The notes under the pieces were generated by a model. The model was not told where the DNA came from. It saw only the letters and a program-made list of their open reading frames with translations, and searched no databases. The position numbers were made by a program, and so were the translations under genes. Shown one piece after another: positions 1 to 17,313 of a stretch of 37,433 nucleotides of DNA. The number at the start of each line of letters is the position of its first letter. The first letter of the stretch is position 1. The DNA comes from Campylobacterales bacterium (GTDB taxonomy: Bacteria; Campylobacterota; Campylobacteria; Campylobacterales; Nitratiruptoraceae), in the NCBI GenBank assembly GCA_027082175.1, contig JALWIX010000096.1, positions 1-37,433 of the forward strand, read 5' to 3'.

Positions 1-371
1 ACAGATGTAAAATCATCCAAGTCATCATAAGGAGGCTCGCCGATGTCGGCTCCCAATGCCGAAGCTTCCGCCTTGTGCTCACAATTCCTAGAACCTAAAA
101 AACCTCCTACTCTGTATCCGTTATCGTTACATTCATAAGCCGCATTGCCGTTATTAACAAGCAAAATATCGTCATATTCGCTATTTTTTTCATCCCAAGC
201 GGTAGCTTTGATAAGCCCTAACAAAGCTACCGCGCTAAACATAGCCTCTTCTCTTATACTTTGAGTAGAAGCTTTGGTGCTAAGCTGTAAAATTTTCGGC
301 AAAACCGTAAACGCAATAGCGATTATCGCCATAGAAAATACAAGCTCTATCAAGGTAAACGATCTTCTCAT
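1..371 (-). CDS. Prepilin-like protein with type IV pilin N-terminus (3' end outside window)
   Basis: The gene starts with ATG at 371 and is still open at position 1, so only about 123 residues are visible. The N-terminus is a class III prepilin signal: a short basic leader (MRRS), then FTLIEL with the conserved Glu at +5, then a hydrophobic helix of about 20 residues. A prepilin peptidase would cut before the Phe and methylate it. The globular part has several Cys (YECND, SRNCEH), as in pseudopilins. Its ATG overlaps the stop of the upstream secreted-protein gene (ATGA), so the two are translationally coupled, which suggests one pilus-like or secretion apparatus. Family level is clear; whether this is a type II pseudopilin or an MSHA-type minor pilin cannot be told from the fragment. 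Confidence 0.85.
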   Translation of the reverse strand, partial: MRRSFTLIELVFSMAIIAIAFTVLPKILQLSTKASTQSIREEAMFSAVALLGLIKATAWDEKNSEYDDILLVNNGNAAYECNDNGYRVGGFLGSRNCEHKAEASALGADIGEPPYDDLDDFTS

Positions 372-3046
372 CTAAAAAGCCTTATACCTCTTTTGTTATC
401 GCTTATATTGATATCTTCTATATCAACACCTTTAAAAGCGCCTCCGCTCTCTACCGCATTCCCCTGATTTTTTACTTTATACTCGTACTTTATGCATGGA
501 TGAGAGAGACAACTGCTTCCTACGCTATAGTTGTAATCTTCTCCAAACCCTTTTGGCAAATACCAAAGCCAAGGAGAGATATTAAGATGTATATAAAAAA
601 CGCCCTCTAGCGCGTTACTATTTGAAATGTTTATATTAAAAGTTCCGTTATTGTCCAAGGAAGAGGATGCATTGATATTTACATCTGTATTTAAGATAGT
701 ATTGTCCGTTACGTTAGTCTCAACTATATTTCCGTAAGAGATATTTGAATGGTAGCTATTTTGATACCAGTTTACCAAAGTTTCGTTAAAATCTTTTACA
801 AACTCATTTTTTACACTGCTAAAAACTAAAATTTTTGCGGTTGTGTTGTCATCTGTTTTATATGTTGATATATCTTTTGTCCAGACTCTAGCAAAATAAA
901 AAGTGGCATTGTTGTCATCTTTCGCCTTAACGCCATTTAATATCTTTGCTACGTTTGTTGTGACATTAACTTCTTTCAACTTGACAAATATCGGATCTAT
1001 CGGGCTATCAAAACTTCTATTTACGTCAAATGCGTATCTGTTTTTAGCTTTACCGTTTCTAAAAAGAGCCGCATCAAACCTCAAAGTTTTGTTGATATCC
1101 TCCAAAGAGCTGTTATCGTCGTTCGTTGTGCCTAGATATACGGCCGTTATGCCGATATTGCCGCTGCTGTTTACATCGTAAAAAAACTTTATCTCCACAT
1201 CTTCTCCATAACAGCTACTATTAAAATCGTTAAGCAAAATGCCCTTTTTTGAAAAAATACCCACCTGTGCTTCTAAAGTTACGTTCATATCTTTTAAATC
1301 GGAATTTTTAATCATATAGAGCCAATTTTTACCGGTAGATACGGTAAAGTTTAGATCGGTGATATTGGCTTCGTAGGGTTTTACGTTGATAGTCGTAGTA
1401 TTTGACGCTATTAATCTTTCGCTATCGTTTGTATCGTCAAAGTCGATTCTAGCAAACTCGCTACCGTTTATCTCTTTTATGGTAACGTTAATATCGCCAA
1501 TCTCATCATAGTTTGCCGATATATTTTTCGCCTCTCCGTTACTAAAACTAAAAGAAGCAAGCGTTAACGATCCGTTTTCGCATCCAACTTTTGTCTCGTT
1601 TGCCTCTAGCCTAAACGAACCGTTTAAGGTTTCGTTGTAGTCGGTTGCGTTTGTATCCGAGCCAAAAACTTTAGCGGCAAATGAGAGATTAAAATCTTCC
1701 CCGGCATACACCTGGTTTGATGGCGGATATATAACAAATCTATCGGGCCTTACGGCAAAATTATCGGTTGATAAAGTTCTGTTGTCTTCAACGCTCAAAG
1801 GACAGCTATCGTCAACGTCTCTTTTCCACGCTATCAAAACTCTAGCTTTTTTCAAAGCGTTTGATAGGAGTATACCGCTATAGGTAGATAAGTTCTGATC
1901 GCTAAAGAGCAGTTTTTGCCAAGGAGTGTAACTTCTGTTTAAATCATCAACAATCTGTACGCAAACCGTTCCGTTAAACTCTTGATAGTCTGTTTCCGTC
2001 TCATCCAAAGAAGCGATTGTTAGACTAAACTCTTTAGAGACTATTTTAGTGGAGATATTTCGATCGTTTATATCTCTAAATGTATCCCAAGCGTCAAACT
2101 TAAAGTTAACGTTGTTGCCGTTATCCGACAAACATCTTGGGATGATGATCAATTCGTCCCAAGAGATATCGTCGTAACTATTGCTGTTTGTAAATATGCC
2201 CGAGACAATCTCTACTTTGCCGTTACTTATAGGAGAGAGATTTCCGTAATATGTCAAGTTTAAATCGTAAACGCCGTCGTCACTCGCATTTAAATCAAAA
2301 CTCTTTATCAAAGAGTTATCTATATAAAAGTTTAGTTTGTTTATGCCGTTTTCGTGAATATCTCTAATCCTAGATATAAAAAAAGTTATCTGATCCGCGC
2401 TGCAAGAGGTGTTAAAATCGTAAGATACCGAAGTGTCTTCAAAATCGTCGGGATAATAAAAAGGTTTATCGTTATCGTTTGTCAAATCATCATAGTTGTC
2501 GTTATCGACAAAACAATTTCTACCTTTACAATAATAATCTGGAGAATCGCCGATATGCCTTCTTTGTATGAAATTTATAGCAAAACTTCCCCGATCGCTA
2601 ACAAGTTTTATAGCGCTAAAATGAAAATCGTCAATATCGTTAACGTAACTTGAACAAATCTCCTCCACTCCACCATCATAACAACTACCCCTAACCGCAA
2701 CGGTATGCATTCCTGCGGTTAAATATAGATCAACATCCACAAAAGTCTCTCCATCGTTACCGGTAGCTACCAAATTTCCGTCTATATATACTCTAAGATT
2801 GCTGTCAGCCTCAAAACCGTACGGATCTACCAACTCAATTTTAGTTATGTTTACCTCTTCGGTTAGATAAAAACGGCTTGGATTGTTTAGATAGTAGTCG
2901 TAAGTACTCTCATCATACCTAGTTAACGGATCTTTTGGCGTATAGTTGGTATCTTCGTTGTCTCCTGGATGCAAATACCCATCTAAAACTATATCCGCTC
3001 TTAAAAAAAGCGTAAAAAAAAGCGCAAAAAGGAGTATAAATCTCAT
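368..3046 (-). CDS. Large secreted MshQ-like protein saturated with N-glycosylation sequons
   Basis: An 892-residue protein with a Sec signal peptide (MRFILLFALFFTLFLRA). The body is rich in Asp and Asn and probably built of beta-sandwich modules. A stretch beginning near residue 410 (NFAVRPDRFVIYP) resembles the MshQ/DUF6701 region of MSHA pilus operons, where a large protein sits beside minor prepilins; here a prepilin gene overlaps its stop codon. It starts at ATG 3046, overlapping the rsmE stop. By eye about 33 of about 42 N-X-S/T sites carry Asp or Glu at -2, the PglB-type bacterial sequon, spread from residue about 30 to the C-terminus. Scattered Cys pairs suggest disulfides. Likely role: surface or pilus-tip protein (inference). 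I recognise no catalytic motif. Confidence 0.75.
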   Translation of the reverse strand: MRFILLFALFFTLFLRADIVLDGYLHPGDNEDTNYTPKDPLTRYDESTYDYYLNNPSRFYLTEEVNITKIELVDPYGFEADSNLRVYIDGNLVATGNDGETFVDVDLYLTAGMHTVAVRGSCYDGGVEEICSSYVNDIDDFHFSAIKLVSDRGSFAINFIQRRHIGDSPDYYCKGRNCFVDNDNYDDLTNDNDKPFYYPDDFEDTSVSYDFNTSCSADQITFFISRIRDIHENGINKLNFYIDNSLIKSFDLNASDDGVYDLNLTYYGNLSPISNGKVEIVSGIFTNSNSYDDISWDELIIIPRCLSDNGNNVNFKFDAWDTFRDINDRNISTKIVSKEFSLTIASLDETETDYQEFNGTVCVQIVDDLNRSYTPWQKLLFSDQNLSTYSGILLSNALKKARVLIAWKRDVDDSCPLSVEDNRTLSTDNFAVRPDRFVIYPPSNQVYAGEDFNLSFAAKVFGSDTNATDYNETLNGSFRLEANETKVGCENGSLTLASFSFSNGEAKNISANYDEIGDINVTIKEINGSEFARIDFDDTNDSERLIASNTTTINVKPYEANITDLNFTVSTGKNWLYMIKNSDLKDMNVTLEAQVGIFSKKGILLNDFNSSCYGEDVEIKFFYDVNSSGNIGITAVYLGTTNDDNSSLEDINKTLRFDAALFRNGKAKNRYAFDVNRSFDSPIDPIFVKLKEVNVTTNVAKILNGVKAKDDNNATFYFARVWTKDISTYKTDDNTTAKILVFSSVKNEFVKDFNETLVNWYQNSYHSNISYGNIVETNVTDNTILNTDVNINASSSLDNNGTFNINISNSNALEGVFYIHLNISPWLWYLPKGFGEDYNYSVGSSCLSHPCIKYEYKVKNQGNAVESGGAFKGVDIEDINISDNKRGIRLFR

Positions 3047-5819: not shown

Positions 5820-6749
5820 ATGAATCTCTACTGGTTACAAAGCGGAGGATGCAGCGGCGACACTATGTCTATGCTAAATTATGAAGGAAATATATTTAAA
5901 CTTTTTGAAAATTTAAATATCAATATATTGTGGCATCCATCGCTATCCGCAATAGATTCAAATACGCATGATAAACTACTACAAGATATTTTAGATGAGA
6001 AAATAGCTTTAGATATTTTATGCATAGAGGGAAACGTAGTATTAGGACCCAACAATACGGGTTTGTTCGACACTTTTAGAGGCAAACCTAAAAAAGAGCT
6101 TATAAAAAAACTCTCCTATAAAGCTTCTTACGTAATAGCTGTAGGCACTTGCGCTTCTTTCGGCGGAATAGGCTCATATGACGAAATGCAAGGCGTTGGT
6201 CTACAGTTTCATCATACTAAAGAAGGCGGGTTTTTAGGTAAAGAGTTTAGAACAAAAGAGGGAAACAAAGTTATAAATCTCCCCGGTTGCCCAATACACC
6301 CAAAAGCGCTAGAAAATATTTTATATAAAATCACCTCTAAATCCCCCATCCAATTTACAAAAAGAAACACCGACAAAGAGTACTACAATTTTACCGTTCA
6401 TCAAGGTTGCACAAGAAACGAATATCACGAATACAAAGTTGAAGAGAAAGATTTTGGAGAGAGAGGGTGCATGTTTTTCCATATGGGATGTAAAGGCCCC
6501 ACTACGCTAGCCCCTTGCAATAAATATCTATGGAACGAAGTAAATTCAAAAACGAGAGCCGGCGTGCCTTGTTTTGGATGCACAAGATCGGATTTTCCTC
6601 AACCTTATCCATTTTTTCAAACTAGAAATATTATAGGAACTCCTCTTGAATTGCCCAAAGGAGTGGATAGAGCTCACTATTTAGCATATAAAGATATGGC
6701 TTGGGCCGCTGCGCCGCAAAGACTTATAAAAAGGACTCAAAGAGTATGA
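5820..6749 (+). CDS. Cytosolic group 2-like [NiFe] hydrogenase small subunit, Asp in proximal-cluster motif
   Basis: A 309-residue iron-sulfur subunit that relays electrons from the Ni-Fe site. The N-terminus begins directly with the fold (MNLYWLQSGGCSGDTMSML) and has no Tat signal, so it stays in the cytoplasm like HupU/group 2 enzymes. Ligand positions visible: proximal cluster C11, C111 (GTCASFGG) and C157 (PGCPIHP) with D14 where Cys is usual; distal H194, C197, C217, C224; medial C233, C251, C254. There is no C-terminal membrane anchor. ATG 5820 follows GGAG, and the gene's TGA overlaps the large-subunit ATG. Asp at this place is known from group 1h and some group 2 enzymes, so the exact subgroup needs phylogeny. 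Confidence 0.9.
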   Translation: MNLYWLQSGGCSGDTMSMLNYEGNIFKLFENLNINILWHPSLSAIDSNTHDKLLQDILDEKIALDILCIEGNVVLGPNNTGLFDTFRGKPKKELIKKLSYKASYVIAVGTCASFGGIGSYDEMQGVGLQFHHTKEGGFLGKEFRTKEGNKVINLPGCPIHPKALENILYKITSKSPIQFTKRNTDKEYYNFTVHQGCTRNEYHEYKVEEKDFGERGCMFFHMGCKGPTTLAPCNKYLWNEVNSKTRAGVPCFGCTRSDFPQPYPFFQTRNIIGTPLELPKGVDRAHYLAYKDMAWAAAPQRLIKRTQRV

Positions 6750-8239
6750 AAATAGAGTTAGATATTCCACTTAATAGAGTGGAAGGCGATTTAGATATAA
6801 AAGTAACCATACATAACAACAAAATTATTGAAGCTAAAAGTATAGGAACTCTTTATAGAGGCTTTGAAAATATTTTAAAAGGGAGGGCTCCTTTAGACTC
6901 GTTAGTTCTTACTCCAAGAATATGCGGAATATGCTCTTTATCACATCTTTTAGCCGCTGCAAAAGCTTTGGACAACGCATATAAAATCACTCCCCCGCCA
7001 CAAGCGGTAAGAATAAGAAACATATCTATTTTAGCCGAATCGCTGCAAAGCGATCTAAGGCAGCACTATTTGATGTTTATGCCGGATTTTACAAACGAAA
7101 TATATAACGATTTTTCTTTTTTTTCGCAAGCAAACAGTTTATATAAACCGTTTCAGGGCTATTTTCCTAGAAAAATACTAGAGATCACAAAAGAGATACT
7201 AAAAATCATCGCCATACTTGGAGGGCAGTGGCCTCACACTTCGCATATTGTTCCAGGAGGTATAGCTTCAAAGATTTATACTCCCGAACTTTTGGAGATA
7301 CTTAACTTAGCAATTAAAACAAAAGAGTTTTTGGAAAATGAGATATATTGTCAAAGTTTAGAGGAGCTAGAAAAGATTGACTCATATAATTCGTTAGAAA
7401 AAAATATTTCCAGATATCCCTCTTCTCAACAGGCTATTTTTACCAATATTGCCAAAAAGACAAATCTTTTCAATATAGGAAAAACTGGATACGGATATAT
7501 TAGCTATGGAGTAGTTGATAACCCTCTCAATCCAAATACTAGCTTTATACCCGCCGGTTATAGCGACGGAAAAAACATATATCAGTTTAATCAGGAAAAA
7601 ATTAGCGAAGACTCGACTTACGCTAGATTTAAAAGCGACGCCTCTTTACATCCGTTCGATGGAAAAACAGAAGTCGACATAGAGAAAAAAGATGCTTATA
7701 CGTGGGTAAAAGCCGTTAGATACGACTCAAAAGTTGCGCAAACAGGACCTTTAGCGGAGTTTTTAATGTCAAAAGACCCTCTATTTTTCGATCTTGTCGA
7801 AAAATTTGGTGACAGCGTATACGTAAGGCAGTTAGCTAGAGTTTTTAGACCGGCAAAATTTATAAAATATATCATAGATTTAACGCAAGAAGCGTTAAGA
7901 AATATTCAAGAAGAAGTCTATATAAAACCTCATCCAAATAAGAACGCTATAGGTTACGGATTAACCGCGGCAGCACGAGGAGCGCTTGGACACTGGATAA
8001 AGATAAAAGATGATAAAATAGACTCTTATCAGATCATTTCCCCTACTACTTGGAACGGCTCTCCAAAAGATATAAACGGAAACTATGGTCCTTGGGAAAA
8101 AGCGCTTTTAGGATTAGAGATAAAAGTTCAAGACAATCCCGTAGAGATTGGACACGTTATACGAAGTTTTGATCCTTGCCTTGTTTGTACTGTACACTCG
8201 ATTGAAAATAAAAAACTAACTTACAAAATAGGTTTTTGA
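6746..8239 (+). CDS. [NiFe] hydrogenase large (catalytic) subunit
   Basis: A 497-residue subunit carrying the Ni-Fe(CN)2CO site that splits or forms H2. Both metal-binding motifs are intact: RICGICSLSH (C60, C63, H67) and DPCLVCTVH (C478, C481, H484). After H484 there are 13 more residues (SIENKKLTYKIGF), the kind of C-terminal extension removed by a specific endoprotease; regulatory HupV subunits normally lack it. The start is ATG 6746 in the ATGA overlap with the small subunit. An in-frame upstream start at 6701 lies inside the small-subunit gene and is unlikely. With its neighbours it forms a cytosolic uptake or sensory enzyme; the electron acceptor is not encoded here. Confidence 0.95.
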   Translation: MKIELDIPLNRVEGDLDIKVTIHNNKIIEAKSIGTLYRGFENILKGRAPLDSLVLTPRICGICSLSHLLAAAKALDNAYKITPPPQAVRIRNISILAESLQSDLRQHYLMFMPDFTNEIYNDFSFFSQANSLYKPFQGYFPRKILEITKEILKIIAILGGQWPHTSHIVPGGIASKIYTPELLEILNLAIKTKEFLENEIYCQSLEELEKIDSYNSLEKNISRYPSSQQAIFTNIAKKTNLFNIGKTGYGYISYGVVDNPLNPNTSFIPAGYSDGKNIYQFNQEKISEDSTYARFKSDASLHPFDGKTEVDIEKKDAYTWVKAVRYDSKVAQTGPLAEFLMSKDPLFFDLVEKFGDSVYVRQLARVFRPAKFIKYIIDLTQEALRNIQEEVYIKPHPNKNAIGYGLTAAARGALGHWIKIKDDKIDSYQIISPTTWNGSPKDINGNYGPWEKALLGLEIKVQDNPVEIGHVIRSFDPCLVCTVHSIENKKLTYKIGF

Positions 8240-8640
8240 TGATGAAAAAAATTATCTGTATAGGAAACAGATTTATATATCCGGACAATTTCGGCATCAA
8301 AATCTATGAAAAATTAAAACAAAATGCCCCTAAAGATATAGATGTTATTGAAGGCGGTTTAGGCGGATTAAACTTGGCTTTGCATTTTGAGACCGACGAA
8401 CCTGTTTTGGTAGTGGATCATGGTGTGGGATTTGAAAAAAGATTATTTTTTCTGCAAGAACTCTCAACAGATTTTATAAAAGAGTATAACCACAAAAACG
8501 CTTTTTATTATCTTTTAAAAACTCTTCAGAGCGATAAGAAGAAAAATATTTGGATCTATTTGTCAAATAATCCCAAATGGGAAGAAAAAATGTTGGATAG
8601 ATATTGCTACGAGATATTAGAGGGTATTAAAAGAGTATGA
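8239..8640 (+). CDS. Hydrogenase maturation endopeptidase (HycI/HupD family M52)
   Basis: A protein of about 133 residues that should remove the 13-residue tail of the large subunit after nickel insertion. It opens with the family pattern KKIICIGNRFIYPDNFG (usual GNxLxxDDGxG), where Asp is a nickel-sensing ligand. The block PVLVVDHGVGF matches the second conserved region (usual VDAxxxG). It is a little shorter and more divergent than E. coli HyaD/HycI. The start overlaps the large-subunit stop (TGATGATG); ATG 8239 and ATG 8242 are equally possible. Its presence argues that the hydrogenase is processed and catalytic. Confidence 0.82.
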   Translation: MMKKIICIGNRFIYPDNFGIKIYEKLKQNAPKDIDVIEGGLGGLNLALHFETDEPVLVVDHGVGFEKRLFFLQELSTDFIKEYNHKNAFYYLLKTLQSDKKKNIWIYLSNNPKWEEKMLDRYCYEILEGIKRV

Positions 8641-10085
8641 AACTTTCTAAAAAAATGCTCATAAACGAAATAAAGGTATTGCAAAAAGCGGCTCAAATAC
8701 ACGCAAAATACTCCATAAAACAGTATAAAAACGTTTTAAAAGCATTAAATGAACTTGAAAATGAAAAAAAACTTCTTGAAGAAAAAGTTAAAGAGAGAAC
8801 CAAACATCTAGATAAACTAGCAAAATACGATCCGCTCACCCATCTTCCAAATCGATACTTGTTTAAAGAACAACTCGCTTTAACTCTAAAAAGTTCCAAA
8901 CTGTTAAACAAACCTTTTACGCTACTTTTTATAGATTTAGACGGATTTAAAGAGATTAACGATACATACGGACATAATATTGGAGATATTCTTCTTCAAA
9001 GGGTTTCGCGTATTCTACTATCTTGCGTTAGAGAAAAAACCGATACCGTATCGCGATTAGGGGGAGATGAGTTTACGATCATACTTCCGGGTCTAAACGA
9101 CAAAAGAGTTATAGATAAAATAACGGATAAAATTCTTCAAAATTTAAACAAAACAATAAATCTTTCACCAAATATAAAAGTCAACATATCAGGGAGCATA
9201 GGAATATACGTATATAACGGATTTGAAGACATCTCTATAGACGATATTATAGCCAATGCGGATATAGCGATGTATAAAGCGAAAGAGAGCGGTAAGAACA
9301 GATGTGTCATATTTGATCAAAAAATGAAAGATTACGTCTCTAAACAGACCGTACTCAAACAAGAACTTATAGAAGCTTTTAAAAACAATAGATTTTTAAA
9401 CTATCTGCAGCCAATTGTAAATATGCAAGATAAAAAAATCGTAGGTGTTGAGGTGCTTTTAAGATATAAAAATAGGAATGAAATCTTAACTCCAGCATAT
9501 TTTATAGATACTTTAGAAGAGATGGATTTGATATTTGACGTTACAAATTGGCAGATAAAAAAGGTTTTATCCGTTTTTAAAAAAATAGATAAAGATATTT
9601 TTATCTCATTTAATTTAACCTCTAAAGTATTAAATAACCAAAATATTATCGATTTTTTAAAAAGTTTAAAAAAAGAGGTCTCTATAGATTCTTCTAGAAT
9701 CTATTTTGAAATAAGAGAAAATGACTTCGCAAAAGATTTACAAAAAGCCAATAAAATATTGCAAACTATCTCGGAGCTAGGATTTAAAATATCTTTAGAC
9801 AACTTTGGGACAGGTTACTCATCTTTATCGTTTATAAGAGATTTTACTATCGATACTTTAAAAATAGACAGAACATTCGTTAGAGATATCGAAAAATCCC
9901 AAAAATATTATAAACTTTTTCAATCGATAATCAATATGGTAGAACTTCTTGAACTTGAAGTTATTATTGAAGGTATTGAAAACAAAGAGCAGTTGGAACT
10001 TGTCAAAGAAAAGAGTTTCATAAAAGTACAGGGATTTTACTTTTACAAACCTATGCCTCTAGAAGAGTTTATTTTGTTGGTGTAA
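8637..10085 (+). CDS. GGDEF-EAL protein coupled to the hydrogenase operon
   Basis: A 482-residue cytoplasmic protein for cyclic di-GMP synthesis and/or breakdown. Residues 1-62 form a Lys/Glu-rich helix, probably a coiled coil, with no PAS, GAF, receiver or membrane segment. The GGDEF domain has GGDEF at 142-146 and DLDGFKEIND at 100-109; the inhibitory RxxD is disturbed (R132, D136). The EAL domain (about 240-482) keeps E272, N326, E358, D388, K409, E445 and Q465, but the signature is EVL and the second Asp of DDFGTGYSS is N389. Cyclase activity is likely, phosphodiesterase activity doubtful. ATG 8637 overlaps the protease stop (ATGA), so it is made together with the hydrogenase. How hydrogen state would reach it is unknown. 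Confidence 0.93.
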   Translation: MKLSKKMLINEIKVLQKAAQIHAKYSIKQYKNVLKALNELENEKKLLEEKVKERTKHLDKLAKYDPLTHLPNRYLFKEQLALTLKSSKLLNKPFTLLFIDLDGFKEINDTYGHNIGDILLQRVSRILLSCVREKTDTVSRLGGDEFTIILPGLNDKRVIDKITDKILQNLNKTINLSPNIKVNISGSIGIYVYNGFEDISIDDIIANADIAMYKAKESGKNRCVIFDQKMKDYVSKQTVLKQELIEAFKNNRFLNYLQPIVNMQDKKIVGVEVLLRYKNRNEILTPAYFIDTLEEMDLIFDVTNWQIKKVLSVFKKIDKDIFISFNLTSKVLNNQNIIDFLKSLKKEVSIDSSRIYFEIRENDFAKDLQKANKILQTISELGFKISLDNFGTGYSSLSFIRDFTIDTLKIDRTFVRDIEKSQKYYKLFQSIINMVELLELEVIIEGIENKEQLELVKEKSFIKVQGFYFYKPMPLEEFILLV

Positions 10086-10257: not shown

Positions 10258-11307
10258 TTATAATATTTGATTTATATAAAAAAGTCCTATGCCGAACAAA
10301 AGAGCCAAAAAATTTAAAAATAAAAACTTTACCAAAAATTTATAAGCATTGTTATATTTTGCTATATAGAGACGATATGCAATGATGCTAGCTAGTGAGC
10401 CCCAAAGCACTCCAAAACCTCCGACACTAACACCCCATAGTAGCGACTGCCAGTCGTTTGTAAAGTTTGATAGCAGTACGGCGGTTGGAACGTTACTCAT
10501 TATTTGACTAAGAAGGAGTGCGGTAAAAAAAGCGATATGAGAATCAAACAGGTTTTGATAAAGCAAAATAGAAAGATTATCCGCAATTCCAAAGAAAAGA
10601 TAAAAAATAATTAAGAGCATATAGTCTATTTTTAAAAGTGAAGTATCGGTAAATAGCGTATAGAAGAAAATTATTGAGAGAAGATAAAGAGAAACTATCT
10701 TAAAAATCGCTAAAATTATAAACAAGAAGAAGAAAAGATAGGGAAAATATCTTTTTTTGATTTCCACTCTTATCTTTCGAGGTTTTATCTTGATAAAAGC
10801 AGTCTTACCAATAAAAAGCACAAATAAAAAACTTCCAATTACAAATGGAGCAATTGTAAAAACAAACTCTATAAAATCAAGATTATAATGCCAGTAGATA
10901 TAGAGATTTTGAGGATTGCTAGTTGGTAACAAAGAAGCTGCGTTAGCCGAGATTGCTTCTAGGATAATCAAGAGATCTTTTTTATCCACTTGTAGCGCTA
11001 AAGTTATCGGTATCATTACAAACAACGCTACGTCATTTGTTACAAACATCGAAAGCAAAAAGGTTGCAACTAAAAGTAAAATAAGGCTTGAGCGTTCTTC
11101 AAACCATATTGCTATAGCTTGCAAAATATTAGCTTTTTGCAAAGCTTTAACCACAATCAAAAACATCGCTAAAATATAAAGTACCTCGAACTCATCTCGA
11201 CTCATATGAGGATAGCGATTAGCGATAAAAGAGGTTAAAGCAAAAAGCGTCAAAGAGAGAGAAAAGAGTCTCTCTTTTATAAAAAAAGCCAAAATTTTAC
11301 GGTTCAT
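10258..11307 (-). CDS. Anion permease of the ion-transporter superfamily (ArsB/YbiR-like)
   Basis: A 349-residue membrane protein with about ten hydrophobic helices. Two inverted-repeat signatures of this superfamily are visible: MFVTNDVALFVMIPITLAL with NAASLLPTSNPQNLYIY in the first half, and SQIMSNVPTAVLLSNF in the second. NPQNLYIY is typical of YbiR-type permeases rather than true arsenite pumps, and no arsA or arsR is nearby. ATG 11307 lies inside the end of the M14 gene (11-base overlap), so it is the last gene of the ATP-grasp/carboxypeptidase operon and may move that system's substrate or product (inference). The transported ion cannot be read from the sequence. Confidence 0.82.
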   Translation of the reverse strand: MNRKILAFFIKERLFSLSLTLFALTSFIANRYPHMSRDEFEVLYILAMFLIVVKALQKANILQAIAIWFEERSSLILLLVATFLLSMFVTNDVALFVMIPITLALQVDKKDLLIILEAISANAASLLPTSNPQNLYIYWHYNLDFIEFVFTIAPFVIGSFLFVLFIGKTAFIKIKPRKIRVEIKKRYFPYLFFFLFIILAIFKIVSLYLLSIIFFYTLFTDTSLLKIDYMLLIIFYLFFGIADNLSILLYQNLFDSHIAFFTALLLSQIMSNVPTAVLLSNFTNDWQSLLWGVSVGGFGVLWGSLASIIAYRLYIAKYNNAYKFLVKFLFLNFLALLFGIGLFYINQIL

Positions 11308-13873
11308 AATATAAAACTACCGGCTCGGAATAGTTTGGAACATTGTCGTATGTGAAGACTGCGTAATATTTGGCGATTTTTGTGTTGCCAAAGTTATCGT
11401 AGGTGTAGTTATCTCGACCGGCATAAAGCTTTACGCCGTCCTGTGGGTTTTTAGGCGGATGAAAACGGTTTCGAACCACATAAGCTCCTACAAAGTCTTT
11501 ATCTTTTGGATTTTGCCAAGTCAGTTTTACCATACCTTTTTCGATGGTGGCTTTTAAGTTTGTAACCGGACTTACGGGCATTTTTCGCTTTTTGATATAC
11601 TTAATCACAAGCTTTACCACATTTGGACTATTTTTATCAAACCAATTAATTAGATGATCTTTAGCTTCGCTTGCCGGTGTCGGGTGGATAATAAAGCCAA
11701 CGGGTCTATTTTTTGTATGAAAGTTTTCTAATTCGATTTTGCTAGCGCTATCAAATAAGAAGTAGTTGGTATTCTCTTTAACAAGCTGCTCTTCACTAAC
11801 TTCATAATCGATAAAACCAAGAGATTTTCTGTTTTGTATATGAAGATAATCTAACTTTTCTAAATCTACAAATTCGATCAAATATCTTATATCCTGAGAA
11901 CTTTTTTTAATATTTTTGTTTTGGATTTTAATATAACTCTCAGTTATAACACACTCATTAGCATCAGGCAAAAAAGAGAGATCAAACTCCATATAACCGT
12001 AAACAATATTGCCCTTTTTATCATATCCGCAAGAGAGCGTATCAAGAACAGTTTCATCTTTTTTTACGGTTGCTAACTTCAAAGGCTCTATCTCCACTTC
12101 AGCAGGCGGAACGGTATATTTAATATATAGATGGGGTCGGTAGTGAATCCCTCCTCCAAAAGGGCCATATCCAAGATCAAACATCATCATCTGACTATCC
12201 GAGCCAAGAGGAAGTTTTGTCGGCCCTTGCATTCGAAAAAGCACCTCTTTTTTCTTTAAAGATTCTTCTAAAAGCTTTCGCTCAAAAGCGTTCAATTCCC
12301 AAGTCTTCCAGATACCTTGAGTCAATTTTTGTGATGGAATCGTTTGTCCTAGGGTTTGAATCACTTTTGCGTTATGTATCTGATTAAAATCGGTTATATC
12401 TTCAACATCTTCAATGATACTTATCCCCCACTCTCCATATTTTTCAATCTTCACATTAACTCGATTCAAGGGGTAAAGACTTATTTTTGCCTCTTTAATA
12501 ATTGCGTTTTGGGGAATAGAGTCAAGACGAAAGCGCATTACGGCATAGCTTATGCCAAGAGTTTTGTTTACTCCTACAAATAGCGAATTTTTACCAAAGT
12601 GCTCGGGATTTTTTTTCGATTTTTGCGCAACGTAGCCAATATCTTGCGGATATGGAAAAATGCTTCTAAAAAACTCGTCTCGCTCTAGTTTTGTCATAAC
12701 TTTTAATTGCGGAGCAAATGGCCCTTTTTGCTTTGTAAGCCTATCTACGGGACGAATATAGTAAAAATACAATTTTCCGCTAGCTCTATCTTTATCGACA
12801 AATTCAAGGTCGCTTGTGGTAGCGATAAGACTAGGCTCGCGGCAAGACTCTTTATGCTTTTCATTCCTATAAATCTCAAAATAGACGTTTGGATACTCCT
12901 CTTTATCATATTCCCATTTGAGCTTGACGCAATTGCTTTCATACTCCTCTATCATAAAGTTTTCCACTCTAGCCGGTTTATTTACTCCGTAACTATGCGC
13001 TTCGTTTAAAGCATATAAAAGAGCCGGGATATTTTCATCGATCGATTCGCTCATATTTTGCAAATAATCCGGAATATTTCTTGTGCCGACCTCAACAACG
13101 GCCGCCAAAATGCCTTTTGAGTAGTAATACTCTCTTGCGCTTCCATGAATAAGCCTAGCCGGAGGCTTTCCCCTATGAATCCCGTATCGTCTGCCTGTTA
13201 CCTTTTCAATCTCATAGTTCATATTGGCGCAAAGAACGTTTAAATCGGTACCTTCGATTTCGGCTTCATGGTTAAATTTGTGCGCAGGAAAAAAGACGTT
13301 GCCTTGCGAGTGATAATCTAAAGCTATCGTAATATTTGGATGAGTATCCACAAACTCTTTTATTGCTTTGGTTTCAGGCTCGCTAAAAGGCTCCGGTCCT
13401 CCATAAATATTGGAAGATGGGTCTTTAGACTTTACCCATCCTACGCTAAAGTTTCGATTTAAGTCTACTCCAAAACTTCCATCAGAGTTTTTTCGTCTAT
13501 TTTTTCGCCAAAAGGAGTAATGTATTCGTGAATATTCAAAACCGTCAGGATTTAACACGGGCACTATATAGAGCGTATTTTTCGATAACGCGCTTATGAC
13601 TCTTGGATCGTTTTTATGGTTTTTTAGCAGATAATCCACAAAAGCGATTGCCAGCTCATTACCTATCCACTCTCTAGCGTGAATCGTACCCGTATATAGC
13701 AAAGCCGGCTTTAAATCGGCATATTCCACGTCAAGCGAAACGGTAGCCAAAATGATATCTCGATTCTCCCACGTTTTGCCAATAACCTGTAGTTTAATTA
13801 GATGCGGATACTCTTTTACTTTCTGTTTAAAAAATGAAATCGTCTCTTCGTAAGACTTATATTGATGTTTCAA
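11297..13873 (-). CDS. M14 zinc carboxypeptidase with FN3 and paired beta domains, no signal peptide
   Basis: A protein of about 858 residues. The catalytic domain (about 1-300) has all M14 residues: H65 and E68 (GTIHAREW), substrate-binding N139-R140 (DLNRNF), H188 (ALDYHSQG) and catalytic E261 (AVVEVGT). Next comes a fibronectin III-like domain (about 305-390), two related beta-rich domains with MRFRLDSIP and MEFDLSFLP cores (DNRLRE-like), and a C-terminal FN3 (VTNLKATIEKGMVKLTW). I chose TTG 13873, which follows AAGGAG by four bases; the longer reading from TTG 13906 has no ribosome site. Either way there is no signal peptide, odd for such a domain set. It overlaps both neighbours. Expected reaction: removal of C-terminal residues from peptides or conjugates. 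Confidence 0.88.
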   Translation of the reverse strand: MKHQYKSYEETISFFKQKVKEYPHLIKLQVIGKTWENRDIILATVSLDVEYADLKPALLYTGTIHAREWIGNELAIAFVDYLLKNHKNDPRVISALSKNTLYIVPVLNPDGFEYSRIHYSFWRKNRRKNSDGSFGVDLNRNFSVGWVKSKDPSSNIYGGPEPFSEPETKAIKEFVDTHPNITIALDYHSQGNVFFPAHKFNHEAEIEGTDLNVLCANMNYEIEKVTGRRYGIHRGKPPARLIHGSAREYYYSKGILAAVVEVGTRNIPDYLQNMSESIDENIPALLYALNEAHSYGVNKPARVENFMIEEYESNCVKLKWEYDKEEYPNVYFEIYRNEKHKESCREPSLIATTSDLEFVDKDRASGKLYFYYIRPVDRLTKQKGPFAPQLKVMTKLERDEFFRSIFPYPQDIGYVAQKSKKNPEHFGKNSLFVGVNKTLGISYAVMRFRLDSIPQNAIIKEAKISLYPLNRVNVKIEKYGEWGISIIEDVEDITDFNQIHNAKVIQTLGQTIPSQKLTQGIWKTWELNAFERKLLEESLKKKEVLFRMQGPTKLPLGSDSQMMMFDLGYGPFGGGIHYRPHLYIKYTVPPAEVEIEPLKLATVKKDETVLDTLSCGYDKKGNIVYGYMEFDLSFLPDANECVITESYIKIQNKNIKKSSQDIRYLIEFVDLEKLDYLHIQNRKSLGFIDYEVSEEQLVKENTNYFLFDSASKIELENFHTKNRPVGFIIHPTPASEAKDHLINWFDKNSPNVVKLVIKYIKKRKMPVSPVTNLKATIEKGMVKLTWQNPKDKDFVGAYVVRNRFHPPKNPQDGVKLYAGRDNYTYDNFGNTKIAKYYAVFTYDNVPNYSEPVVLYYEP

Positions 13874-14012
13874 ATCTCTCCTTTTTAAATTCTTGCCAAG
13901 CTTCAAGCAATTTTTTTAGCGTTTTATCTTTAATCCCCTTAATTTCTAGTAAAGCATCGGGATTATTATCTAGCTCATAAGCTATATTAAACGCGTCAAT
14001 CTGCTCTAACAC
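13857..14012 (-). CDS. 51-residue helix-hairpin-helix-like small protein
   Basis: A short frame beginning GTG 14012 and ending TAA 13857. It lies between the second ATP-grasp gene, overlapping its last seven bases, and the M14 gene, overlapping its first 17. An AAAAGG precedes the GTG by about seven bases. The core DALLEIKGIKDKTLKKLLEA fits a helix-hairpin-helix: helix, Gly-containing hairpin (KGIKDKT), helix, as in DNA-binding or adaptor modules. The overlaps on both sides and the good ribosome site support it as a real gene. Its role in the cassette is unknown; an adaptor, a nucleic-acid-binding partner or a peptide substrate are all possible. Confidence 0.65.
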   Translation of the reverse strand: MLEQIDAFNIAYELDNNPDALLEIKGIKDKTLKKLLEAWQEFKKERFETSI

Positions 14013-15271
14013 TTTTTTTGCCTTTTTGCCAGTGTATTATGTAAAAACTCATTAATCTCCTCTTCGCTTAAAACTACAGGCTGTTCGTCGCTTGGCTCTT
14101 CAAAACTATGCTCTTCGTTTGATATTTTCTTCTCTTTTTTCTCACTCTTTCCCCAAAAATTTTTACACTTTTTAGTAAAATCCCACTTTTCGCTTGGCCA
14201 CTCTTCATAGTTTCTCTCTTCGGTATTTAACATCGGATACTCTTCGTCAAGTTCCCAAATCTTATGGACTGCTCCACTCTCATCCATCTTTTGCCTATTT
14301 AAAAAGTACTCTCCGTCAAAACTAGGAGTATAGCGTCCAAAGGTGATATAGCGCATCGTACGTAGAAGGGAGCTATCGATTTTGCCTAGCTCCTCCCAGT
14401 TATAGACGGGTATATTGGGCTTAGGAAATCTTCCGTCACTTAATTTCCACATCAGATACTGCCCAATCCAATCTCTTATATAAGGAAAAGCGGCAAATGC
14501 TGTGGCGCACTCTAATATACGATATTTTCCATCCTCTTTACCTACGGCTATATCGCATGCCCAATATTCCGCATTGGCCGCTTTGCTAACTTTAACGGCT
14601 AGATCCAACACCCCTTTGGGTACGTTTAGATAATCTATGCTTCCTCCTTGAGAGGTATTGGTGAGCCAGTGCCCTTCCGGCGGCCTTCTCCAAAAAGCGC
14701 AAACCGGTTTATGACCAATCAGCATCACCCTTATATCGGAGCTCATCGGCACAAAATCTTGTATATAGATTGGACAATACTTTTTTGTTTCTAAAAGCTT
14801 TTTAGCCTCCTCATAACTATCTACTTTATGTACAAAATAGCCTCCATAATTGCTTGGGCCATAGCTTCTTTTTATGATTTTAGGATAAGTTGTTTTTTCC
14901 AAAAAGCCCATCCCCTCATCTTTATCGTAAAATATATAAGTTTTTGGAACGGGGATATTATATTTCCAACAAAATCTCGTAACATTCTCTTTTGATTTAT
15001 TGGCAAATTGACTATCAAGCGAGGGAATAAATTTTACGTTTGGAAGTTCTCTCGCAATCTTTCTAAAAGTCTCATAGGCGGTTGCCGGAATATTTCCTAT
15101 CAAAACATCGATTTTTTTCTTTTTAACCTCTTTTATAAAACGTTTCTCATCGCCCTTCCAATGATAGATAACCGTTTCGATTTTATCCGGCCAACCTTTG
15201 AAATTGCTTCTGTCAAAAAATCTCAAAACATAATCCAGATATAAAAGCCCGATTTTTGGTAGTTTTTTCAT
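14006..15271 (-). CDS. RimK-like ATP-grasp ligase B with long C-terminal extension
   Basis: A 421-residue protein. Residues 1-95 form a Rossmann-like pre-ATP-grasp domain (DVLIGNIPATAYETFRKIA). Residues about 95-285 are the ATP-grasp fold: NVTRFCWKYNIPVPKTY, the nucleotide-binding Lys region PKIIKRSYGPSNYGG, YIQDFVPMSSDIRVMLIG, WLTNTSQGGS and YRILECATAFAAFP. The last usually contains E-x-N for magnesium; here it is E-C-A, so the second metal ligand is altered. Residues 290-421 are a separate charged extension with many Trp and Tyr, ending KKC. ATG 15271 overlaps the upstream ligase stop (ATGA). By family it should join a carboxylate to an amine using ATP; the substrates are unknown. Confidence 0.85.
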   Translation of the reverse strand: MKKLPKIGLLYLDYVLRFFDRSNFKGWPDKIETVIYHWKGDEKRFIKEVKKKKIDVLIGNIPATAYETFRKIARELPNVKFIPSLDSQFANKSKENVTRFCWKYNIPVPKTYIFYDKDEGMGFLEKTTYPKIIKRSYGPSNYGGYFVHKVDSYEEAKKLLETKKYCPIYIQDFVPMSSDIRVMLIGHKPVCAFWRRPPEGHWLTNTSQGGSIDYLNVPKGVLDLAVKVSKAANAEYWACDIAVGKEDGKYRILECATAFAAFPYIRDWIGQYLMWKLSDGRFPKPNIPVYNWEELGKIDSSLLRTMRYITFGRYTPSFDGEYFLNRQKMDESGAVHKIWELDEEYPMLNTEERNYEEWPSEKWDFTKKCKNFWGKSEKKEKKISNEEHSFEEPSDEQPVVLSEEEINEFLHNTLAKRQKKC

Positions 15272-16170
15272 CTGTTATCCTTTATTTTTTTATCCATCAA
15301 CTCTACAATCTTTTCAATCTTTTTATCGTTAAAATCTAGTCCCATTTTTTCTTGTTCCGGCGTGGCAAAAGCAGGAATTCCGTTAACTTCTAGCACTACG
15401 TACTCATTATGCTCTCTATCGTAGATGATATCTACACCGGCGATCTCTATATCAATCGCGCGCGCCGCTTTTTTAGCCAGTTCTATCACTTCATCTTCAC
15501 ACTCTCTTAAAACTACTCTGCCCCCGCTTGTTACATTCGTTCGCCAATCTCCCTCTTTTGCTTTTCTACCATAACATGCGATAAACTCTCCATTAACCAA
15601 ATCTACCCTAAAATCGCTTCCGTCATAATCGATAAACTTTTCTATATAAAAAAATCTTAGGTCCGTTTGATTTAAAAAGGGCAAAATCATATCAAGCTTA
15701 TCTTTGCTATCCACAAGAGCCATACCTATACCGCCCCATCCATCGACAGTCTTAAAAACAGCTTTTCCCCACTCCAATACCTTATTGCGTATAGTTTCCA
15801 CATCTTCTCTATGACATAAGAAATATTCGGCCGTTCTTATACCAGCCTTTCGTAAAAGATCGTTTGTCTTAAACTTATCTTCGCTTATATTGAAAGCTTT
15901 AAAACTATTTATGCAAGGCACATGTTTGTCTAACGCTTCATAAAGATAGACTTGATATTTCGTCTGTTCGCCGGCGTTATAACTAAAAAAACAATCAAGT
16001 TCATATAAATTAAGCCCATTGAGTAAAATTTTTCCGTTTTCTGAAATCGCTTTACGAAGATTTAACCCGGTTGAGACGATATGACCTCGCTCTTGAAGTT
16101 TTGCGACAAGCTTCTTTTCAATCAAATCCCCACCGCCGTTTTGATACATCCAAATGCCTATATGTGCCAT
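15268..16170 (-). CDS. RimK-like ATP-grasp ligase A
   Basis: A 300-residue ATP-dependent carboxylate-amine ligase, close in length to RimK, LysX and microviridin-type ligases. The N-terminal lobe (1-95) contains an unusual NGGGD. The ATP-grasp part shows the expected succession: CINSFKAFNISEDKFKTNDLL, Lys motif VFKTVDGWGGIGMAL, FYIEKFIDYDGSDFRVDLV, the RTNVTSGG loop, and VDIIYD followed by VVLEVNGIPAF with intact E-x-N metal ligands. ATG 16170 follows AAAGGA. It is the first gene of the five-gene overlapping operon and is divergent, across 60 bases, from the M20 carboxypeptidase. The canonical metal site suggests this is the active partner if ligase B is impaired. Confidence 0.9.
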   Translation of the reverse strand: MAHIGIWMYQNGGGDLIEKKLVAKLQERGHIVSTGLNLRKAISENGKILLNGLNLYELDCFFSYNAGEQTKYQVYLYEALDKHVPCINSFKAFNISEDKFKTNDLLRKAGIRTAEYFLCHREDVETIRNKVLEWGKAVFKTVDGWGGIGMALVDSKDKLDMILPFLNQTDLRFFYIEKFIDYDGSDFRVDLVNGEFIACYGRKAKEGDWRTNVTSGGRVVLRECEDEVIELAKKAARAIDIEIAGVDIIYDREHNEYVVLEVNGIPAFATPEQEKMGLDFNDKKIEKIVELMDKKIKDNR

Positions 16171-16195
16171 ATTAGTCCTTTAAGAGGATTTAGTC

Positions 16196-16201
16196 TATAA
16201 T
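16196..16201 (+). promoter_or_regulatory. Putative -10 box for the M20 peptidase gene
   Basis: TATAAT centred in the 60-base divergent spacer 16171-16230, placing a start of transcription about 20 bases before the ATG. The same short spacer must also hold the promoter of the ATP-grasp operon, so the two units may be co-regulated. Confidence 0.45.
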
Positions 16202-16230
16202 ACTAAAAAATTGATAAAAAGGCTTTAAAA

Positions 16231-17313
16231 ATGTATGATTTCAGCGAACTTGCCGAACTTATCAACATCAACTCCTATACCAAAAACAAAGCGGGCGTTG
16301 ATGAAAACGGTTCTATTATGCGCAAAAAGTTTGAAGCTTTAGGATACAAAACAGAAGTTTTTGAGAGAAAAGATTTTGGCAATCACCTCTATTTTACAAG
16401 CCAAAAAAAAGAAGGCCCCAACATACTGCTTTTAGGCCACTTAGACACCGTCTTTCCGCCTGGAACATTTGAGGGATTTAAAGAGGACGAAGAGTGGATT
16501 TACGGACCTGGAGTTTGCGACATGAAAGGCGGAAACTTGGTAATGGTAGAGGCTCTAAGAGCTCAAGAAAAGATTTTCAATATAGATATTTTTTTAGTAA
16601 GCGACGAAGAGATAGGAAGCGATGACTCAAGAGAGTTTACAAAAGAGATTGCCAAAAATTACGAATATTGTTTAGTTTTTGAAGCTGCAGGCAAAAATGA
16701 CGAAATAGTAGTGGCTAGAAAAGGTATTGGCACATTTTACGTAGATATCGAAGGCAAAGCCGCGCACGCTGGAAACTGCTATAGCGATGGAATTGACGCA
16801 AATTTAGAGGCTGCGCATAAGCTTATATCTTTTAGCCATTTAACCAATCTTAGCAAAGGAACAACTGTTAACGTGGGAAAAATTGAAGGCGGTATCGGAG
16901 CCAATACCATCAGTCCGCAAGCTAGACTCATTTTAGAGGCTAGGTTCACCACGCAAAGTGAAAGAGATCGAGTCTTAGCTGAAATTACGGAAATCGTAAA
17001 TAGCTCGTACGTATTAGGAAGCAGAGCGATTTTGAGCGGAGGCTTACAACGGGATGTCATGGAAGAGAGCGAAGCGCAGCTTTTATTTATCAAAAAAATT
17101 GAAAAATGGAGTAAACAGAAAATTCTTACCGAAAAGCGAGGCGGCGGTAGCGATGCAAATATTGCCGCAAGCGTCGGAGTTGTCACTCTTGATGGTTTTG
17201 GTCCGTACGGCGACGGAGATCACACTATCCATGAAAGGACGAGTAAAAAAAGTTTTATAAACAGGATTGAGCTAGTTAGTAAGATATTTAAAGGTTTTAT
17301 AGATGAATTATAA
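16231..17313 (+). CDS. M20 family metallo-carboxypeptidase (glutamate carboxypeptidase/CPG2-like)
   Basis: A 360-residue cytosolic two-zinc peptidase. Metal ligands and catalytic residues match carboxypeptidase G2: H70 and D72 (LLLGHLDTVF), D97 (GPGVCDMKGG), catalytic E126 with E127 (VSDEEIGS), E151 (VFEAAG) and a C-terminal His (GDGDHTIHER). The dimerisation domain contains GKAAHAGN and EGGIGANTI. CPG2-type enzymes remove C-terminal glutamate from folates and similar conjugates; ArgE/DapE-type deacylation is an alternative. It is divergent from the ATP-grasp/M14 operon, which suggests it trims or recycles what the ligases build (inference). A strong terminator follows. Confidence 0.9.
   Translation: MYDFSELAELININSYTKNKAGVDENGSIMRKKFEALGYKTEVFERKDFGNHLYFTSQKKEGPNILLLGHLDTVFPPGTFEGFKEDEEWIYGPGVCDMKGGNLVMVEALRAQEKIFNIDIFLVSDEEIGSDDSREFTKEIAKNYEYCLVFEAAGKNDEIVVARKGIGTFYVDIEGKAAHAGNCYSDGIDANLEAAHKLISFSHLTNLSKGTTVNVGKIEGGIGANTISPQARLILEARFTTQSERDRVLAEITEIVNSSYVLGSRAILSGGLQRDVMEESEAQLLFIKKIEKWSKQKILTEKRGGGSDANIAASVGVVTLDGFGPYGDGDHTIHERTSKKSFINRIELVSKIFKGFIDEL

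Follow-up and report, generated by a model that had tools for sequence, protein, structure and literature searches.

A conserved module of two ATP-grasp ligases and two carboxypeptidases in Campylobacterota: a candidate system for reversible conjugation of acidic amino acids

Two RimK-like ATP-grasp ligases (here LigA and LigB) and two carboxypeptidases of the M14 and M20 families make up a four-gene module, M20 | LigA - LigB - M14, in which LigB carries a C-terminal HhH domain. We give a probability of about one half to the reading that the four genes are one unit by which acidic amino acids, glutamate most likely, are reversibly joined to a target in the cytosol. The reasoning is that the two ligases both come from glutamate-using families, that at least one of the two carboxypeptidases is predicted to act on acidic residues, and that the set is apparently cytosolic and inherited together, a combination pointing to a cycle of acidic amino acid conjugation and deconjugation. 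The set co-occurs strictly and across phyla, and the predicted chemistry of its two ligases opposes that of its two hydrolases. A reversible acidic-tail cycle, if confirmed, would give bacteria a protein modification of the write-and-erase kind, with dedicated enzymes as erasers.

Neither the gene set nor the RimK-HhH pairing was found described in the open literature searched. Iyer et al. reportedly reviewed amidoligase gene neighbourhoods in 2009, and the four-gene neighbourhood may already be listed there. The superfamily of each enzyme was already known; what is new is the combination of genes, the fusion of an ATP-grasp ligase to HhH and the altered metal site of LigB.

Gene order and the split LigB frame

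The window, i.e., the whole stretch of DNA analysed (37,433 nucleotides), belongs to a genome of 1.83 Mb in 115 contigs, the nearest named relatives of which are Nitratiruptor-type Campylobacterota. The carboxypeptidase-G2-like M20 peptidase (positions 16231 to 17313, plus strand, 360 aa) is the divergent gene of the core and is separated by 60 bases from the side of LigA, a RimK/MptN-like ATP-grasp ligase with a canonical Glu-x-Asn in its Mg site (15268 to 16170, minus strand, 300 aa). LigA overlaps by ATGA with the catalytic part of LigB, a LysX/ArgX-like ATP-grasp protein (14006 to 15271, minus strand, 421 aa), which is cut early by a one-base deletion at approximately 14031. The C-terminal HhH domain of LigB is separated by this frameshift as an ORF of 51 aa (13857 to 14012, minus strand), and a 17-base overlap joins it to the gene of the M14 carboxypeptidase (11297 to 13873, minus strand, 858 aa), which begins with a TTG start at 13873 preceded by AAGGAG. 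An overlap of 11 bases leads to a CitMHS-type permease (10258 to 11307, minus strand, 349 aa), a neighbour outside the core. The ORFs, strands and overlaps given in a preliminary description of this DNA were borne out by the window sequence, and its domain names were matched as well: RimK (PF08443) in both ligases, Peptidase_M14, Peptidase_M20 with M20_dimer, and CitMHS. The cassette of six genes proposed there is reduced to the conserved unit of LigA, LigB, M14 and M20, the HhH protein being a domain of LigB and the permease a neighbour.

Two other regions of the window may be mentioned. At 5820 to 10085 (plus strand) end-to-end overlaps connect the genes for the small and large subunits of a [NiFe]-hydrogenase, a HycI-like maturation protease and a GGDEF-EAL protein, which suggests an operon tying the hydrogenase to c-di-GMP turnover. 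At 368 to 3046 (minus strand) there is an 892-aa protein rich in Asp, Asn and Thr, with an apparent signal peptide and without a Pfam match.

LigB and HhH form a single frame of approximately 450 to 490 aa in all 19 relatives first examined, and nearly all full-length LigBs added later also end in HhH. On this ground the separate HhH gene of the preliminary description was rejected; what looked like a gene is the C-terminus of LigB, detached by a frameshift. In G003, the closest relative with 97% identity, the sequence runs ACA CTT GGC AAA AAG GCA AAA AAA GTG TTA where the window has ACA CT-GGC, so that by comparison with G003 the window lacks one T at approximately 14031, after which the LigB frame runs into an early TAG. 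The missing T reflects a true mutation or else a mistake in the assembly. Reading the sequence directly, an A-AAA-AAG heptamer is found in the shifted frame at 14012 to 14018 (minus strand), just before the premature stop; it would seem to be of a kind known among slippery sites, and slipping by -1 at this point could conceivably rejoin LigB and HhH. As the run of A residues is present in G003 too, the position of the heptamer may be a coincidence. Fusion of the LigA and LigB genes, suspected from frames of approximately 780 aa, was rejected, the two being separate ORFs.

The HhH type varies by lineage, with HHH_5 in some and tandem HHH_3 (ComEA type) in others. In other lineages the Pfam scores lie above the cut-off (up to 89 bits for HHH_3 and up to 40 bits for HHH_5); the HhH of the Nitratiruptor-type LigB scores 21 bits, under the Pfam cut-off, and the tail of the Photobacterium LigB has no Pfam match and is recognised by the profile of the LigB HhH tail (E 3e-12). 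HhH is thus retained in LigB despite the change of type between lineages. The tail is predicted to bind nucleic acids; HhH domains can bind proteins too. In the linker between the catalytic part and the tail (approximately residues 372 to 400 in L024), a low-confidence region, a DE[S/A/G/T/N] motif was seen in 75 of 95 LigBs and, upstream of it, an EEWPSEKW-type motif in 84 of 95. Auto-modification of the linker was considered and set aside, as DE[S/A/G/T/N] is missing from most HHH_3-type members and is therefore not universal.

Co-occurrence and distribution of the core genes

Among 60 relatives, all four core genes were present in 25 and all absent in 32. Their co-occurrence is far above chance: Fisher p is approximately 5e-16 for LigB against M14 and for LigB against LigA, and approximately 6e-14 for LigB against M20, all three uncorrected for shared ancestry. 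M20 was found in 28 of these genomes, including every one of the 25 with LigB. Three genomes fall outside this pattern: G022, which is 83% complete and in which the end of LigB lies at a contig edge, G030 with M20 and LigA only, and G056 with M20 only. A set of 80 named loci contained the LigB ORF in 78, LigA in 75, and M20 and M14 in 66 each, and many of the gaps fall on short contigs or contig edges. The flanking genes vary, the next commonest neighbour being present in 14 of the 80 loci. The orientation of M20 is divergent in the Nitratiruptor and Sulfurovum types and collinear in others.

LigB was detected in 53 of 397 Campylobacterota genomes, patchily distributed over 25 of 68 genera and eight families, all eight of which belong to the order of the window in this sample. 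The whole unit is also present in the gammaproteobacterium Photobacterium sp. DA100, with 52-63% identity. Occurrence in very close relatives only, which the preliminary description had named as counting against its reading, is thus not what was found. Comparison of G009 with G007 revealed conserved flanks and a cassette which is present in the former and absent from the latter as a block, and the module is apparently inherited in this manner. Between LigB, M14 and M20 the pairwise distance matrices show correlations of 0.88-0.90; those between LigA and the other core genes are 0.59-0.72, and these lower values suggest that LigA may have been exchanged. In G037 M14, LigA and M20 remain together without LigB, which lies apart from the cassette (L135, 9000-10415) between elongation-factor-P (efp)-like and dnaE-like genes, as named by eye. 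The cassettes of G009 and G006 (L189 and L190) are flanked by metE-like/aspartoacylase-like genes and by purL and lie on opposite sides of a small gene that is itself conserved, which means that the exact insertion point differs between the two.

The permease adjoins M14 in five loci (window, G003, L024, L026 and G006/L190). It was rejected as a member of the module, because a relative of it stands beside purL in G001, where the cassette is absent, and because in G003 it is broken by loss of an internal stretch beside an intact cassette. In G009 both cassette and purL are present without the permease. The transport that the preliminary description tentatively added to the system is accordingly dropped, the permease being only a neighbour at the locus.

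Many hosts of the cassette are free-living marine or vent bacteria, a habitat which we partly presume from genus names, and some apparently derive from places that are not marine, sulfidic caves among them. No match to LigB was obtained in viral contigs. Membership in a known anti-phage defence system was rejected, none of the proteins having a match to PADLOC-DB models at E 0.01.

Predicted activities of the ligases and carboxypeptidases

Judging from their PF08443 matches (E 7e-25 and 88 bits for LigA, E 1e-13 and 51 bits for LigB, cut-off 21), both ligases are members of the RimK-like ATP-grasp superfamily. The best models for LigA are those of glutamate ligases, TIGR00768 of the RimK family (136 bits, cut-off 143) and MptN (135 bits, cut-off 350), both matched below cut-off, and the equivalog of the S6-modifying RimK (NCBIfam, the E. 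coli RimK model) gives 68 bits against a cut-off of 331. The LysX equivalog model gives 80 bits for LigB and 103 bits for LigA against a cut-off of 276. LigB is closest to LysX/ArgX by sequence, and LysX is the best match both among solved structures and in Foldseek searches with the predicted fold. The metal motif of LigA is E-V/I-N in 90 of 90 sequences. LigB keeps the Asp and Glu of the Mg set in all 95 sequences, and in the same 95 Glu-x-Asn is replaced by Glu-Cys-Ala. Arg182, Asp241, Glu255 and the Gly-rich loop of LigB are invariant, and across families the identity of its catalytic part to the first sequence lies at 60-89%.

The M14 protein (PF00246, E 3e-55) groups with the A/B-type carboxypeptidases and has intact catalytic residues: HxxE, N-R and Glu261 are invariant in 76 of 76 sequences, the third zinc ligand, His188, in 28 of 28, and the nearest solved structures are CPT and CPB of the A/B type. 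The catalytic domain (approximately residues 1 to 295) is followed by an FN3-like domain, DNRLRE-like beta domains and an FN3-like region, so that beta domains of these two kinds fill the C-terminal two thirds; FN3 was assigned by eye from the strand pattern, and the DNRLRE model NF033679 scored 33.4 bits (cut-off 34). Among the solved relatives listed there are CPA, CPB, CPT and CPO types and regulatory carboxypeptidases and no CCP; the M14 domain begins at approximately residue 13, and the protein does not fall in the CCP (M14D) subfamily with its N-terminal domain. By eye, no signal peptide was seen in the M14 N-termini listed, and the enzyme, as well as the module, is apparently cytosolic.

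In the A/B subfamily the residue at position 255 indicates specificity: Asp goes with basic, a hydrophobic residue with aliphatic or aromatic, and Arg with acidic C-terminal residues, and in carboxypeptidase O (CPO) it is Arg255 that confers acidic specificity (PMC9925722). Arg247 of M14 aligns to Asp255 of carboxypeptidase B and is Arg in 76 of 76 sequences, from which removal of acidic C-terminal residues is predicted. The predicted model has a mean pLDDT of 79 and drops below 50 at residues 235-247, around the active site, so the assignment to position 255 rests on the sequence alignment.

M20 has the Pfam domains M20 and M20_dimer, and its nearest solved structure is carboxypeptidase G2 (1cg2, E 2e-26). 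Lys208 of carboxypeptidase G2 aligns with Ile in M20, so glutamate specificity of M20 is at most putative. The model of the LysW-lysine hydrolase gives approximately 50 bits with M20 (cut-off 363).

Proposed cycle, alternatives and related systems

The proposed cycle would run as follows. LigA would be an ordinary active ligase, phosphorylating a carboxylate with ATP and then coupling the amino acid. LigB would be a LysX-type ATP-grasp protein held on the target by HhH, the target probably being nucleic acid or a nucleic-acid-bound complex. Since the Asn of its Mg site is replaced by Ala without exception, LigB may work as a ligase whose metal geometry is altered, or it may be chiefly a subunit for recognition. 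M14 would trim acidic residues off C-terminal ends, and M20 would remove or hydrolyse the remaining amide in a step like that of carboxypeptidase G2. We infer glutamate as the residue from the enzyme families, and the cycle is presumably reversible in the cell; the target is perhaps nucleic-acid-associated, as the HhH domain suggests. The preliminary description had the ligases build, and the carboxypeptidases trim, a possibly glutamyl conjugate, and this part of it is strengthened by the families, the co-occurrence, Arg255 of M14 and the kinship of M20 to carboxypeptidase G2. A more specific version, which we regard as rather speculative, would place LigB through HhH on nucleic acid or the ribosome, where together with LigA it would add acidic tails to a bound protein, with M14 and M20 as erasers. 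That would amount to a mobile and reversible charge-tagging of the nucleoid or the translation machinery, convergent with the eukaryotic TTLL/CCP code. The tail of ribosomal protein S6 was considered as the target and found unsupported: the C-terminal tail is identical in G009, with the cassette, and G007, without it.

The main rival is a small-molecule pathway, in which the ligases would make a poly-acidic tail on a cofactor, or a short peptide serving as a store or compatible solute, and the peptidases would recycle it. We consider it possible but do not expect it. LigA matches the general RimK family model and MptN, a ligase that puts glutamate on a cofactor, equally well, and M20 resembles carboxypeptidase G2, an enzyme that cleaves the glutamate of folate. 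Peptidases also stand beside ligases in osmolyte operons, such as that of N-acetylglutaminylglutamine amide, and many of the hosts are marine or vent bacteria. However, a DNA/RNA-type HhH on LigB would have no obvious role, M14, with its 858 aa and adhesion-like domains, is more elaborate than a small substrate would call for, and the osmolyte version is weakened by the hosts from apparently non-marine sites. Even with a small-molecule target, the module would stand for an unassigned pathway shared by a large group of bacteria that oxidise sulfur and hydrogen, along with a new fusion of ATP-grasp and HhH bearing an altered metal site.

The loss of the Mg-site Asn could also mean that LigB is no ligase at all. 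It would then be a nucleic-acid-bound sensor or scaffold in a unit devoted mainly to peptide degradation or recycling, with LigA as a salvage ligase; the very high conservation of the catalytic part of LigB suggests instead a working site and makes this unlikely. The affinity of LigB to LysX/ArgX in sequence and fold, together with the fact that the release enzyme LysK is an M20 peptidase too, recalls the route that uses an acidic carrier protein for protecting and converting an amino acid, with M20 releasing it. LysW was found in none of 31 relatives, with positive controls, M20 scores far below the LysW-lysine hydrolase cut-off, and M14 has no part in that route, which we judge quite improbable here. 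As for a small ORF which a carrier or a precursor peptide would occupy, none is conserved near the cassette in 96 loci, the largest cluster comprising 8 of 96 in antisense or other contexts. The graspetide cluster offered as an alternative in the preliminary description, a RiPP pathway with two macrocyclising ATP-grasp ligases, has in its favour the two adjacent ATP-grasp genes and the presence of the graspetide ligase PsnB among the Foldseek matches of LigB. Against it, besides the lack of a precursor ORF, stand the end-to-end overlap of the genes, a core without an exporter, and ligase models matched at E 3e-4 or worse (MvdC approximately 19 bits against 425, MvdD 14 bits against 475). We hold it to be very improbable indeed.

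The reversible conjugation cycle would resemble tubulin glutamylation and deglutamylation by a TTLL ligase and a CCP peptidase, or the action of RimK on S6, and be a member of neither. With the tubulin and histone system it shares the pairing of an ATP-grasp ligase with a cytosolic M14 enzyme predicted to take off acidic residues; the subfamilies differ, M14 grouping here with the A/B type (CPT/CPB) and the ligases with RimK and LysX. LigA has in common with RimK the ATP-grasp type and a chemistry of adding acidic residues, but it falls under the TIGR00768 cut-off and far under that of the E. coli RimK model, and no link is seen between S6 tails and the cassette. To our knowledge RimK has no dedicated M14/M20 pair. 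Compared with lysine and arginine biosynthesis by LysX/ArgX and LysW, the fold and nearest sequence of LigB and the use of an M20 enzyme are the same, whereas here LysW is missing, LigB lacks the Mg-site Asn and has HhH, M14 is additional and M20 is not LysK-like. Carboxypeptidase O is, like the M14 of the module, of the A/B type with Arg at position 255, but it is a membrane-anchored animal enzyme, while M14 is free of a signal peptide and bears FN3/DNRLRE-like extensions. Carboxypeptidase G2 is the nearest solved relative of M20, at a similarity of only approximately E 2e-26 and with Lys208 aligned to Ile. The cofactor glutamate ligases MptN/CofF, finally, are approached by LigA at 135 bits to MptN, under the cut-off of 350, and we know of no counterpart of LigB, M14 or M20 in their systems.
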